From the NCBI GenBank assembly GCA_028683385.1, contig JAQUIJ010000002.1, forward strand, positions 186,001-250,000: a DNA stretch of 64,000 bases. The letters are read 5' to 3'. This stretch comes from Prolixibacteraceae bacterium (GTDB lineage: Bacteria > Bacteroidota > Bacteroidia > Bacteroidales > Prolixibacteraceae). Below, one piece after another: positions 12,372-19,388 of the stretch. The position numbers and the translations under genes are program-made. The first letter of the stretch is position 1. The number at the start of each line of letters is the position of its first letter. Under the pieces are notes generated by a model that worked only from the letters and a program-made list of their open reading frames with translations, did not search any database and had not been told where the DNA came from.

Positions 12372-12668
12372 ATGACCACAAAAGATTACATATTAGCTTC
12401 AATTAAAAAACACCGATCCGATCTTTCAGTGTTCGGAGTTCAGTCTGTTGGTCTTTTTGGTTCGTATGTTCGCAACGAACAAACGGAAAAAAGCGATATT
12501 GATCTGTTGATCGATTTTGACCCTGAAAAAGAAACTTTTGATAATTACATGGCATTGTGCGATTATCTGGATTCGCTTTTTCGAAACGAAAAGGTTGAAA
12601 TCGTTACCAAAAACGGTTTGAGCCCTCACATCGGGCCTACTATTTTGAGGGAGGTTCAGTATGTCTAA
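12372..12668 (+). CDS. mntA: MntA-type nucleotidyltransferase antitoxin
   Basis: The 98-residue minimal nucleotidyltransferase shows the signature GSX10DXD as GSYVRNEQTEKSDID, followed by the third acidic strand region VEIVTK. In MntA/HepT (type VII) toxin-antitoxin pairs this enzyme AMPylates and silences the HEPN RNase toxin. The next gene is such a HEPN protein and starts inside this gene's end (ATG 12661, overlap 8 bases), which is the standard arrangement. Stand-alone nucleotidyltransferases of other function exist, but the partner makes the antitoxin call likely. Confidence 0.85.
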   Translation: MTTKDYILASIKKHRSDLSVFGVQSVGLFGSYVRNEQTEKSDIDLLIDFDPEKETFDNYMALCDYLDSLFRNEKVEIVTKNGLSPHIGPTILREVQYV

Positions 12669-13013
12669 AGAGCCTTTAGAATATCTTAGACATATTCAGG
12701 ATGAATGCATTTTTGTTTTATCTGTAATTGGTGCAGAAACGGATAAGAAGTGTTGCTTTCCGATGAGACACTAAAGAGGGCAGTTGTCAGAAGTCTTGAA
12801 ATTATTGGTGAAACGACGAAGAAAATTCCAGTTGATTTTAAACTGAAATGGGATTCCATTAACTGGAAAAACATGGCTGGAATGAGAGATCGACTTATAC
12901 ATGATTACATGGGGGTAAACTATTCTATCGTTTGGGATGTGGTAAAAAATAAAATTCCGGAGTTATCTATTCAAGTACAGGAAGTGATTGATTCCGAAGA
13001 ATCTGTCAAATAG
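12661..13013 (+). pseudogene. hepT: HepT-like HEPN toxin, frameshifted
   Basis: From ATG 12661 the frame gives MSKEPLEYLRHIQDE, the normal HepT start, but meets TAA after 38 codons at about 12775. The rest of the protein continues in another frame from about 12750: LLSDETLKRAVVRSLEIIGE and later MRDRLIHDY, which holds the HEPN RNase motif R-x4-H. One base is missing near 12743-12749 (GATAAGAAGTG); one more A would give D-K-E-V-L-L-S-D and join both parts. As written the toxin is inactive, unless the lesion is a sequencing error in the A-rich run. Confidence 0.8.
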
Positions 13014-15292: not shown

Positions 15293-15327
15293 TGTGATCT
15301 TTCTGTGACATCTGCTGTTTACTTTTG
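15293..15327 (+). promoter_or_regulatory. Direct-repeat box and -7 element of the two-component operon
   Basis: TGTGA at 15293 and again at 15304 are spaced 11 bp (TGTGATCTTTC, TGTGACATCTG), the spacing used by OmpR/PhoB-type regulators. TACTTTTG at 15320-15327 matches the TAnnTTTG -7 box. The same arrangement occurs at 17576-17610. Confidence 0.6.
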
Positions 15328-15346
15328 AAAGTTTAGAAATCATAAC

Positions 15347-16045
15347 ATGGATAAAGCGCTAATCATTGAGGATGATCAGGATATAGCCAATCTGATCTCG
15401 ATACACCTTTCCGACATGGAATTTGAAGTTGACAAGGCTTTTGATGGAAAAGATGGATTACTGAAAGCATTAAACAACCCATACAAGATCATCATTTTGG
15501 ACATCAGGCTGCCGGGAATGGACGGGTTTGAAGTGTGCAAAAAGTTGCGTCTGGAGAAAGTTCAAACGCCAATCCTGATTGTGACTTCCAAATCGGAAGA
15601 GATTGACAAAATAATTGGACTGGAGTTTGGCGCCGACGATTACATTACCAAGCCATTCAGTATTCGCGAACTGATGGCACGTGTAAAAGCCATTCTGCGT
15701 CGCGCCGAAATTGCCAAACAGGCCGTTCAATCCAATGAAAATCACGAAATCCATTCCGATGGATTGTACATTAATGTGACCCTTCGCATTGTTGAGGTGC
15801 ACGGGAAACGAATCGAATTATCGCCAAAGGAGTTTGATCTGCTGGTGCTTTTTGCTTCAAATCCCGGGCGAACATATACGCGGGTTCACTTGCTCGAACA
15901 GGTTTGGGGTTATCAGTTCGAAGGATACGAGCATACGGTGAATTCGCACATTAACCGGCTGCGGTCAAAAATTGAATCCAACCTGAATGCTCCGGAGTTT
16001 ATTCTCACAACCTGGGGAGTTGGATACAAATTCAGAGAAAAATAA
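15347..16045 (+). CDS. OmpR/PhoB family response regulator
   Basis: The 232-residue protein has a receiver domain (acidic pocket IEDDQD, phospho-acceptor Asp52 in ILDIRLPGMDG, Lys in YITKPFS) and a C-terminal OmpR-type winged helix (ELSPKEFDLL, RTYTRVHLLEQVWG, VNSHINRLRSKIE, GVGYKF). It is the partner of the sensor kinase that starts 26 bases downstream. An 11-bp-spaced TGTGA direct repeat upstream of its own promoter suggests autoregulation. The signal is not known from sequence, although the repeat spacing recalls PhoB. Confidence 0.92.
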   Translation: MDKALIIEDDQDIANLISIHLSDMEFEVDKAFDGKDGLLKALNNPYKIIILDIRLPGMDGFEVCKKLRLEKVQTPILIVTSKSEEIDKIIGLEFGADDYITKPFSIRELMARVKAILRRAEIAKQAVQSNENHEIHSDGLYINVTLRIVEVHGKRIELSPKEFDLLVLFASNPGRTYTRVHLLEQVWGYQFEGYEHTVNSHINRLRSKIESNLNAPEFILTTWGVGYKFREK

Positions 16046-16071
16046 TTGTCAAAAGATAAAATGGAAGTGCC

Positions 16072-17550
16072 ATGAATCAGAAACCAACATTGTTTTTTAG
16101 TCGCCTTTACTGGAAGATATCTGCCATATTTATATTGATTTTGGTGCTTTTTGCAGGTATCACCTTATATATTTCAGTGCGTTCTGCCAATAATTATTCG
16201 ATTGAAGTAAACCAGAAACTAAATTGGGAACTGGCGGCAACAACTGTTGATTTAATCAAGCCAAAATTTCAAAATGGAACGGTAAACAAGGAAGCGATTG
16301 CTGACATTATGCATTCGATGATGGTAATTAATCCGAGTTTGGAAGTTTATCTGATTGATCCGGAAGGAAAAATACTGAGTTACGTGGCACCCGAAAAAGT
16401 AGTTAAACTCGATAAAGTGTCGCTTGAGCCCATCGAAAGCTTTTTTACCAACATCAAACACAATCTGATTTTGGGAGATGATCCGCGGAATCCGGGCGAG
16501 AAAAAAACATTTTCGGCAGCCAAAGTCATCGATCAGGGCAAGTTAACCGGTTACATTTATATTGTGCTGGCAAGTCAGGAATACGTTTCAGCCGCCCAAA
16601 TGTTGATTGGTAGTTACATCCTCGGACTTTCCATTCGTTCCATAATCATTATCCTGATTATTTCAGCGCTGGTCGGTTTATTCTTTATTTGGTTCATTAC
16701 AAAAAAGCTGAATGCAATTGTTCTTGGAATCAGGGAGTTTCAATCCGGCAATTTTAATGCCCGTATTCCGGTGAAAAATCAAGACGAATTGGATAATATT
16801 GGTTTGGTTTTCAACGAAATGGCCGGAACAATCTCGAAAAATATCAGGGAACTAAAAGAAACCGACGAATTCAGGAAAGAACTGATTAGCAATGTTTCAC
16901 ACGATTTACGAACACCCGTTGCTTCCATTCAGGGATACGCCGAAACGCTTTTGCTGAAAAAGGATAAAATTGCTCCGGAAGAACAAACCAAATATCTCGA
17001 AATCATCTATTCGAGCTGCGAGCGGCTAAAAACGCTGGTGAGCGAACTGTTCGAACTTTCCAAACTGCAAACCAATCAGGTGAAACTTAATCCTGAACCT
17101 TTTTCGATTGCTGAACTGGTCTCGGATATTGCAAATAAATACCGGATTATTTCGCAAAAGAAAGGCATTAGTATCAATGCGTTTGTACCAAAAGAGAATA
17201 CAATCGTTGAAGCCGACATTCTGCTGATCGACCGCGTCTTGCAGAACCTGATCGATAACGCAATCCGTTTTTGTCGTGAAGGCGACTACATCAACATTGA
17301 AATCCATTCGCAAGGCGAGGGAAAGATTGAAGTTAAAATTGCCGATTCAGGAGAAGGAATTAATGCCGATGAACTGCCTTTTATTTTTGAGCGCTATTAC
17401 AAAGGCAAAAAGTACAGCGAAAGTACAGGGTTAGGTTTAGCCATTGTCAAAAAGATCATCGATCTGCATCATTCCAACATTCAGGTTTTCAGCCAGCCAG
17501 GAAAAGGAACAACTTTTATATTTCAACTTCCGGAGATTAGCGTTGCATAA
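16072..17550 (+). CDS. Sensor histidine kinase
   Basis: The 492-residue inner-membrane kinase has a first membrane helix at about residues 15-35, a periplasmic sensor part of about 150 residues, a second helix at about 190-212, and a HAMP linker. The HisKA dimerisation domain has the phospho-acceptor His277 in SNVSHDLRTP. The HATPase has N box LIDNAIRF, G1 DSGEGI, F box FERYYKG and G2 GLGLAI. The periplasmic part contains a PAS-like stretch (LEVYLIDPEGKILSYVAP). It forms an operon with the response regulator. The stimulus is unknown. Confidence 0.92.
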   Translation: MNQKPTLFFSRLYWKISAIFILILVLFAGITLYISVRSANNYSIEVNQKLNWELAATTVDLIKPKFQNGTVNKEAIADIMHSMMVINPSLEVYLIDPEGKILSYVAPEKVVKLDKVSLEPIESFFTNIKHNLILGDDPRNPGEKKTFSAAKVIDQGKLTGYIYIVLASQEYVSAAQMLIGSYILGLSIRSIIIILIISALVGLFFIWFITKKLNAIVLGIREFQSGNFNARIPVKNQDELDNIGLVFNEMAGTISKNIRELKETDEFRKELISNVSHDLRTPVASIQGYAETLLLKKDKIAPEEQTKYLEIIYSSCERLKTLVSELFELSKLQTNQVKLNPEPFSIAELVSDIANKYRIISQKKGISINAFVPKENTIVEADILLIDRVLQNLIDNAIRFCREGDYINIEIHSQGEGKIEVKIADSGEGINADELPFIFERYYKGKKYSESTGLGLAIVKKIIDLHHSNIQVFSQPGKGTTFIFQLPEISVA

Positions 17551-17575
17551 AAAGATGATACAAACGTGAATTTCC

Positions 17576-17610
17576 TGTGATACTTCTGTGATACTGTTGC
17601 CCGTACTTTG
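17576..17610 (+). promoter_or_regulatory. Second direct-repeat box and -7-like element
   Basis: TGTGA at 17576 and 17587 (TGTGATACTTC, TGTGATACTGT) repeats with 11-bp spacing. TACTTTG at 17604-17610 lies at nearly the same distance as the -7 box of the response-regulator promoter (17 versus 16 bases from the second TGTGA). Confidence 0.55.
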
Positions 17611-17637
17611 TTGGTATAAATTTTAAAACAGTATGCT

Positions 17638-17802
17638 ATGAAGACAAAATTAATTGCTTTAGATTTAGTAATCTCAAGATTTACAAACACTTTATTAAAG
17701 GATGATGCCATGACTCTGCCGGCATTTAATTCTGGAATTGCCGGTTATGTTTTTGTTGACCGGTTTGTAAGTGCATTTGAAAGGTTATCCTTAGTCAACT
17801 AA
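17638..17802 (+). CDS. 54-residue orphan ORF behind a regulated promoter
   Basis: ATG 17638 opens a 54-codon frame (MKTKLIALDLVISRF ... FERLSLVN) ending TAA at 17800-17802. No signal peptide, strong membrane helix or known motif is visible, and I recognise no family. It is called because a promoter with the same 11-bp-spaced TGTGA boxes as the two-component operon ends about 27 bases before it, giving a short leader. The transcript might instead be a small regulatory RNA. A region without other genes follows up to 17975. Confidence 0.4.
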   Translation: MKTKLIALDLVISRFTNTLLKDDAMTLPAFNSGIAGYVFVDRFVSAFERLSLVN

Positions 17803-17974
17803 CCTGATTTTGATTTGTTTAGTTAATAAAACGAACAAAGCCATGAAATAGCCATATGTACCAAAGTTCAAACCAACTGACAATGCAAAAATGGCTATTC
17901 CATTCATCGAAATTTTAATTGATGAACTGATATTGATACGAAAGTTATGGAACCATAATTGAAAACGAAAACAA

Positions 17975-18931
17975 ATGAAAACAATTTTTTTAATCATTTC
18001 AATTGTCTTTTTCGGACTTCAGGGTTGCACCCAAAATGCGCCTAAAAGTTCTAAAATAGAAAGTAAAACATCGAATACCAAATACAATCAGCTCACTTCG
18101 GAAGAAGCTGCGGTAATTCTCCATAAAGGTACAGAGGGGGCTTTTACCGGAAAGTACACTGACTTTTCAGAAAAAGGAACCTACGTTTGCAAGCAATGCA
18201 ATGCGCCTTTGTACCGGTCTTCCGATAAGTTTAAGTCGGACTGCGGTTGGCCCAGTTTCGATGATGAAATTCCGGGTGCGGTAAAACGCATTCCTGATGC
18301 AGATGGTATGCGAACCGAAATTGTTTGTGCCAACTGTGGAGCGCATTTGGGGCATGTGTTTTTAGGTGAAGGCTTTACCGCGAAAGACACCAGGCATTGT
18401 GTCAATTCTATTTCCCTGAATTTCATTCCGGCAGGTTCACAAAAGGCTGCAGCTGATACTGCCATTTTTGCCGGAGGTTGCTTTTGGGGTGTTGAATATT
18501 ACATGCACAAAGCGCCGGGAGTGATTTCTACTGAAGTGGGCTATATTGGAGGACATGATTCGAAGCCCACCTACGAACAGGTTTGCAGCCACACAACCGG
18601 ATATGCCGAAGCAGTTAGAATAATTTTCGATCCGAAGAAAACCAGTTATGAAAATGTAGCCAAACTTTTCTTCGAAATCCACGACCCAACACAGGTAAAC
18701 CGGCAAGGACCCGATATTGGCGATCAATACCGTTCGGCTGTTTTCTACCTGAATTCGGAACAGAAAACGACAGCCGAAAAACTGGTTGGCATTTTACGAA
18801 TCAAGGGTTACGATGTGGCAACTGTAATTGTACCTGCAACTAAATTCTGGAAAGCTGAAGAATACCATCAGCAATACTACGCAAAAGAAAACGGAACACC
18901 TTATTGCCACCGATATGAAAAAAGATTTTAG
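17975..18931 (+). CDS. msrBA: Lipoprotein MsrB-MsrA fusion methionine sulfoxide reductase
   Basis: The 318-residue bifunctional enzyme repairs both R- and S-methionine sulfoxide. It begins with a lipoprotein signal (IVFFGLQGC, lipobox Cys), so it acts anchored in the envelope. The MsrB half comes first, with two CxxC zinc pairs (CKQC, CANC), CGWPSF and catalytic Cys142 in RHCVNS. The MsrA half follows with GGCFWG (Cys169), GYIGGH, and DPTQVNRQGPDIGDQYRS. The order B-A is the reverse of the common A-B fusion. A Met-rich metal-binding protein follows, which would itself need methionine repair under oxidative stress. Confidence 0.93.
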   Translation: MKTIFLIISIVFFGLQGCTQNAPKSSKIESKTSNTKYNQLTSEEAAVILHKGTEGAFTGKYTDFSEKGTYVCKQCNAPLYRSSDKFKSDCGWPSFDDEIPGAVKRIPDADGMRTEIVCANCGAHLGHVFLGEGFTAKDTRHCVNSISLNFIPAGSQKAAADTAIFAGGCFWGVEYYMHKAPGVISTEVGYIGGHDSKPTYEQVCSHTTGYAEAVRIIFDPKKTSYENVAKLFFEIHDPTQVNRQGPDIGDQYRSAVFYLNSEQKTTAEKLVGILRIKGYDVATVIVPATKFWKAEEYHQQYYAKENGTPYCHRYEKRF

Positions 18932-18992: not shown

Positions 18993-19388
18993 ATGAAAAA
19001 CAAGACTTTAGTTTCAGTAATCATGGTAGTTGGATTATTCCTTGCTACCACTGCGAGTAATGATCTAAGAGCTCAGGTTGCCAAAGTAAATACAGAAATG
19101 GCAACGACCAAGAAATATACTTGTCCTCACCATCCTGACCAGGTAAGCGACAAACCTGGAAAATGTGGCGTTTGTGGTATGGATTTGGTTGAAGTAAAAG
19201 ATATGGGTAAAAAAAACATGTCGAAAAAAATGGATCCGATGCATGATAAAATGAAGATGGAAGGCGACACCCAAAAAATGAATATGGATAAAATGAAAAA
19301 GGACGCCAACAATATGAAAATGGATATGAAGAATAACATGAATGAAATGAAGATGGATTCGTCGAAAATGACAAAGAAAAAGATGTAG
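18993..19388 (+). CDS. Secreted Met-rich heavy-metal-binding-domain protein
   Basis: The 131-residue protein has a signal peptide (residues 1-28), then a small heavy-metal-binding domain YTCPHHPDQVSDKPGKCGVCGMDLV with Cys/His ligands like those on copper exporters. A low-complexity tail follows, built only of Met, Lys, Asp, Asn and Glu (DKMKMEGDTQKMNMDKMKK and similar), with more than 20 Met. Met-rich tails bind Cu(I) or Ag(I); periplasmic copper buffering is an inference. It lies directly behind msrBA and before a strong terminator. Confidence 0.75.
   Translation: MKNKTLVSVIMVVGLFLATTASNDLRAQVAKVNTEMATTKKYTCPHHPDQVSDKPGKCGVCGMDLVEVKDMGKKNMSKKMDPMHDKMKMEGDTQKMNMDKMKKDANNMKMDMKNNMNEMKMDSSKMTKKKM

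Follow-up and report, generated by a model that had tools for sequence, protein, structure and literature searches.

Autoregulated systems of the OmpR/PhoB family with direct-repeat operators are known, PhoB with its Pho box among others. The E. coli Pho box is an 11-bp direct repeat with the half-site TGTCA, and TGTGA is the half-site of CRP. HprSR/MsrPQ and similar systems are envelope oxidative-stress systems. At sigma-A promoters of Bacteroidota the published −7 box is TAnnTTTG, and the box of the alternative sigma-factor motif SM5 of Flavobacterium psychrophilum is TAnnTTGY (PMC9723704).

We analysed a stretch of 64,000 nucleotides from a Prolixibacteraceae bacterium, called the window below, in which the following features are arranged around a two-component system:

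15293–15308, plus strand: tandem operator TGTGATCTTTCTGTGA, an exact repeat 5' of the response regulator gene, placed for putative autoregulation
15320–15327, plus strand: TACTTTTG, a perfect TAnnTTTG −7 box, judged from the sequence, the PMC9723704 consensus and the same register in relatives
15347–16045, plus strand: response regulator of the OmpR/PhoB type, 232 amino acids, with Response_reg and Trans_reg_C (Pfam)
16072–17550, plus strand: sensor histidine kinase, 492 amino acids, with a PAS/Cache-like periplasmic sensor, HAMP, HisKA and HATPase_c
17565–17591, plus strand: CGTGA-N6-TGTGA-N6-TGTGA, three half-sites in 11-bp steps, the putative operator of a lost output gene
17604–17610, plus strand: TACTTTG, its TTTG 15 bases from the operator as at the regulator promoter
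17638–17802, plus strand: 54-codon open frame, very probably what is left of the 5' end of a decaying DUF7482-like lipoprotein gene of 312 codons (homology to the same-genus genome G012, and dN/dS)
17975–18931, plus strand: MsrAB-type methionine sulfoxide reductase lipoprotein, 318 amino acids, with PMSR and SelR (Pfam), the next gene after the relic

Elsewhere, the window carries an MNT/HepT-type toxin–antitoxin pair (12372–13013, plus strand) consisting of an NTP_transf_2 protein of 98 amino acids and a HepT-like protein of 87; the HepT match starts at profile position 21, and the start of the HepT-like gene may be mis-called or damaged.

Taken as a whole, the locus is, we are confident, best explained by an operator of the two-component system at 15347–17550 and by the loss of a 312-residue output, other outputs most likely surviving in the genome. 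The regulator has both expected domains (Response_reg, E = 1.4e-27; Trans_reg_C, E = 3.3e-27), and the adjoining kinase carries HisKA and HATPase_c, as a two-component system of the OmpR/PhoB family requires. An AF2 model of kinase residues 1–207 (mean pLDDT 74) had the sensor domains of WalK and Tlp3 as its nearest folds, with modest TM-scores. Against PhoB and all other listed NCBIfam equivalogs the regulator scored under every curated cut-off. The PhoB Bacteroidota model gave 192.7 bits (cut-off 270) and the PhoR model 147.2 (cut-off 500); by the equivalog cut-offs, regulator and kinase are not the PhoB/PhoR phosphate system.

The initial annotation had described TGTGA repeats with 11-bp steps before both the regulator and the 54-codon frame, each followed by a TACTTT(T)G element, and this description was accurate. 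TGTGA begins at 15293 and 15304 and again at 17576 and 17587, where an extra CGTGA half-site at 17565 adds one more step upstream. The promoter elements, TACTTTTG at 15320 and TACTTTG at 17604, lie 16 and 17 bases past the point where the second TGTGA starts, in agreement with the earlier description, and the spacing from operator to TTTG core is even identical (15 bases at both sites). Compared with dinucleotide-preserving shuffles of the window, the arrangement is far above chance: exact TGTGA-N6-TGTGA occurs twice against 0.14 expected (1 of 100 shuffles reaches two), and the same repeat with TTTG at the fixed spacing occurs twice against 0.01 expected, a number that no shuffle reaches. A mismatch-tolerant operator search of the window and the genome was dropped as too unspecific. 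The second operator (17565–17591) differs from that of G012 by a single base, and 60 of the first 61 bases of the relic promoter are identical there, compared with 86–87% of the surrounding coding DNA. The sequence TACTTTGT (17604–17611, plus strand) also fits TAnnTTGY, but at the other output promoters the TTTG register is the better fit.

We extended the comparison to 80 named Bacteroidota loci, chosen with the conserved kinase sensor as query, from Prolixibacteraceae and relatives (Sunxiuqinia, Mariniphaga, Draconibacterium and Mangrovibacterium), Algoriphagus, Saprospiraceae and others. The motif [T/C]GTGA-N6-[T/C]GTGA stood upstream of the regulator gene in 65 of 73 loci. Over both strands of these loci (727 kb) the tandem motif occurred 138 times at a spacing of 6, a count of half-site pairs in which triple repeats enter twice; spacings of 3–5 and 7–12 gave 0–3 occurrences each, and the reversed motif at spacing 6 gave one. 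The inverted motif TGTGA-N6-TCACA was absent from the 727 kb at this spacing, leaving direct repeats only. By a simple open-reading-frame test all 138 matches are intergenic, and 131 precede either the regulator gene (66) or one of five output families, namely RskA_C-like (21), Spond (18), DM13-like (15), DUF7482-like (6) and MsrAB (5); some of the matches behind the names Spond, DM13 and DUF7482 are under Pfam cut-offs. The genes behind the other seven include further secreted proteins. Triple-repeat operators precede secreted proteins outside the five families on the minus strand of two loci (L143 and L133). At a fixed distance from the operator the consensus reads TA..TTT for regulator promoters and ggA..TTTG for output promoters.

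The operator also tracks the kinase. Among 148 related genomes, 14 carried the strict pattern and none the reversed one; the kinase was present in 13 of the 14, and the exception (G025) matches the consensus poorly. The operator stays with output genes that are unlinked to the kinase, preceding Spond genes in the window genome (G000), G056, G062 and G030 and a gene of the 312-residue type in G061. In G030 it stands as well before a redoxin/AhpC-TSA gene followed by a DsbD-like gene (L080, G030:C1:519652), a possible unlinked redox output. Conversely, G034 has a Spond homologue and lacks both kinase and operator. This behaviour, tracking the kinase and following unlinked outputs, is what one would expect of an operator recognised by this regulator. 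Given its conservation before the regulator, its strict spacing and its association with regulator and output families, the tandem repeat is, on this comparative evidence, very probably the operator of the two-component regulator encoded beside it, and its conservation extends across Bacteroidota. The earlier inference that both promoters in the window answer to one regulator is very probably right too; the same operator very probably marks outputs across the phylum.

The second part of that interpretation, in which the 54-residue open reading frame was the dedicated output of the system, did not stand. The frame is genuinely open from its ATG (17638–17802), but the homologue search that had been proposed for its product returned, in 149 related genomes, one match besides the window itself, and that gene, in G012, continues to 312 codons. 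No short form was found in these genomes, so a conserved small protein was rejected. The intact gene (G012:C1:3590937–3591872) is 58% identical over relic residues 1–52 and is flanked by the same kinase on one side and the same MsrAB on the other. In the DNA alignment, homology with G012 runs from the kinase to about codon 50, is interrupted by a gap of about 813 bases and resumes at 17806 into MsrAB; about 0.81 kb of the 312-codon gene is missing from the window. When the 312-residue protein was used as query, long genes were recovered in G012, G030 and G061, and the window yielded residues 1–65 with three stops. For this family AF2 gave no usable model (mean pLDDT 32). The deletion could conceivably be an assembly error, but the substitutions in the stump argue otherwise.

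The deletion raises the question of what the promoter at 17565–17610 does now. It may serve MsrAB through read-through of the relic, the leader then being about 365 bases long, a reading that is compatible with the best explanation and to which we give a little less than an even chance. MsrAB lies directly behind the operator in several relatives, a simple scan for terminators on the plus strand came up empty from 17610 to 17975, and the order of relic or lipoprotein gene followed by MsrAB is common to the window genome and G012. Such read-through would account for the continued conservation of the promoter; so would a recent date of the deletion, and MsrAB could have a promoter of its own. 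In addition, a strong stem is predicted in the stretch that separates the relic from msrAB (AAUAGCCAU/AUGGCUAUU; 17804–17925, plus strand; z = −4.6 in the window) and might impede read-through; its bases are kept in G012, where the whole fold is not unusual (z = −0.45). MsrAB is a candidate second output, perhaps reached by read-through. Behind it, a protein of 131 amino acids (18993–19388, plus strand), in which a heavy-metal-binding domain is combined with a tail rich in Met, Lys and Asp, is likewise kept in G012.

Much less probable is that the truncated gene has been retained as a new small protein or RNA, the 54-residue product or a transcript from its promoter being a functional, dedicated output. 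The operator and promoter shared with the regulator, the 54 open codons and the conserved promoter block would fit such a product, and the promoter, better conserved than coding DNA, looks as if it were still used. However, besides the missing short homologues, amino-acid changes accumulated 6 to 9 times faster than in the neighbours. The relic differs from G012 by 28.5 nonsynonymous differences in 50 codons, against a maximum of 12.5 per 50-codon window in regulator, kinase and MsrAB, a contrast that is inflated by fast signal-peptide evolution. Its dN/dS is 0.36, compared with 0.04 (regulator), 0.06 (kinase) and 0.05 (MsrAB), at the same dS (0.82; neighbours 0.74–0.84); a ratio below 1 fits constraint before the deletion but may instead reflect weak constraint now. 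In the mature part, G012 is matched by the relic at 16 of 31 residues and by L086, which is more distant, at 23 of 31, opposite to the order given by kinase identity (91% and 74%, respectively). Where six intact homologues all have the lipobox Cys (Cys19), the relic has Leu, and its signal-peptide core is broken by an Asp. Having lost this Cys and its full length, both kept in G012 and relatives, the relic was not counted as a member of the DUF7482-like lipoprotein family. An Rfam scan of the window matched only a tRNA and nothing in the relic region; a small RNA from the relic promoter is conceivable, and nothing we found calls for one. From its homology to the G012 gene, the excess of changes, the lost Cys and the Asp in the signal-peptide core, we conclude by sequence comparison that the 54-codon frame is a pseudogene, the stump that a deleted lipoprotein gene has left behind.

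The genome scan for repeat plus promoter that the initial annotation had suggested bears on the outputs. Genome-wide statements here rest on pattern searches. Exact operator-plus-TTTG sites proved to be rare, with only three in the 5.9-Mb genome, before the regulator, the relic and one further gene; the third site drives, by position, an intact lipoprotein gene:

G000:C45:134325–135644: spondin-type lipoprotein, 440 residues, intact, identified by direct comparison with relatives

The site (G000:C45:135674–135708) begins 64 bases before this gene. Five relatives have spondin-type lipoproteins with 55–71% identity to this protein across about 430 residues. A Pfam Spond_N search of the genome gave no match, and the C45 protein had none at E = 0.05 or better; one protein of the spondin-type group reaches the Spond_N cut-off. 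The spondin-type gene is absent from G012. As G012 kept the 312-residue gene and has no spondin-type gene, and the window genome shows the converse, the two appear to hold alternative outputs, and the C45 lipoprotein is most likely the best candidate output of the system in the window genome.

That the repeats are bound by another regulator, PhoB at a Pho box or a CRP/Fnr protein, is very improbable: direct repeats of TGTGA in 11-bp steps are similar to the E. coli Pho box and contain the CRP half-site, but three exact sites in the genome are too few for either protein, the sites track the presence of this kinase, the 727 kb hold no inverted TGTGA-N6-TCACA, and the regulator falls under the PhoB cut-offs.

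The conservation, spacing and gene association of the operator, like the homology and decay of the relic, are computed results; binding by this regulator, activation and a role in envelope redox stress are inferred. In the proposed operator mechanism, the kinase would sense an envelope signal through its PAS/Cache-like domain, as its modelled fold suggests, and phosphorylate the regulator, which would bind [T/C]GTGA-N6-[T/C]GTGA as a tandem dimer just upstream of a TAnnTTTG-type promoter. Bound next to a promoter whose −7 box is weak, it would activate transcription; its targets would be its own operon and a few envelope lipoprotein outputs. The 312-residue lipoprotein would once have been an output encoded directly after the kinase; with about 0.81 kb deleted and the remainder decaying, an intact promoter would be left before a meaningless 54-codon frame. 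Surviving outputs would be the C45 lipoprotein and perhaps MsrAB. The occurrence of MsrAB, redoxin and DsbD among the genes behind the operator hints that the regulon may serve against envelope redox damage.

We lean towards a broader reading, in which the kinase and regulator define a regulon, so far undescribed, that extends across Bacteroidota: it would have a single, very specific operator and an output slot whose occupant can change, with unrelated secreted proteins (spondin-type, RskA_C-like, DM13-like, DUF7482-like and MsrAB) being swapped under the same promoter. The window would then capture one such replacement, the 312-residue output dying and the spondin-type output residing elsewhere. 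A literature search, with subscription journals outside its coverage, found the operator sequence in no paper and no link between spondin or DM13 proteins and a Bacteroidota two-component system. A vague motif could in this way become a testable regulon, with a strictly spaced operator and one sensor-kinase family across Bacteroidota, and five envelope protein families of largely unknown function would be placed under common regulation and gain a lead to their signal. The stump also counsels caution, as a short open reading frame behind a good promoter should not be called an output until relatives have been checked for a longer gene.

Compared with the described systems, the locus resembles those of the PhoB type in its receiver and winged-helix regulator, its HAMP/HisKA kinase, and a tandem operator with 11-bp steps before both the regulator's own promoter and the adjoining output gene. 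It differs from the Pho box in its half-site, TGTGA rather than TGTCA, and from PhoB in its outputs, which are secreted lipoproteins of several unrelated families; nor is the regulator a PhoB by NCBIfam cut-offs. Its promoters are like those of Bacteroidota sigma-A in that the regulator has TACTTTTG exactly and the outputs have TTTG in the same register, but the outputs lack a clean TA (GTACTTTG, GGAACTTTG), which would fit promoters that depend on an activator. Although the reductase is MsrAB and the phylum another, the system resembles HprSR/MsrPQ in that its outputs probably include a methionine sulfoxide reductase, joined in one genome by a redoxin and DsbD.
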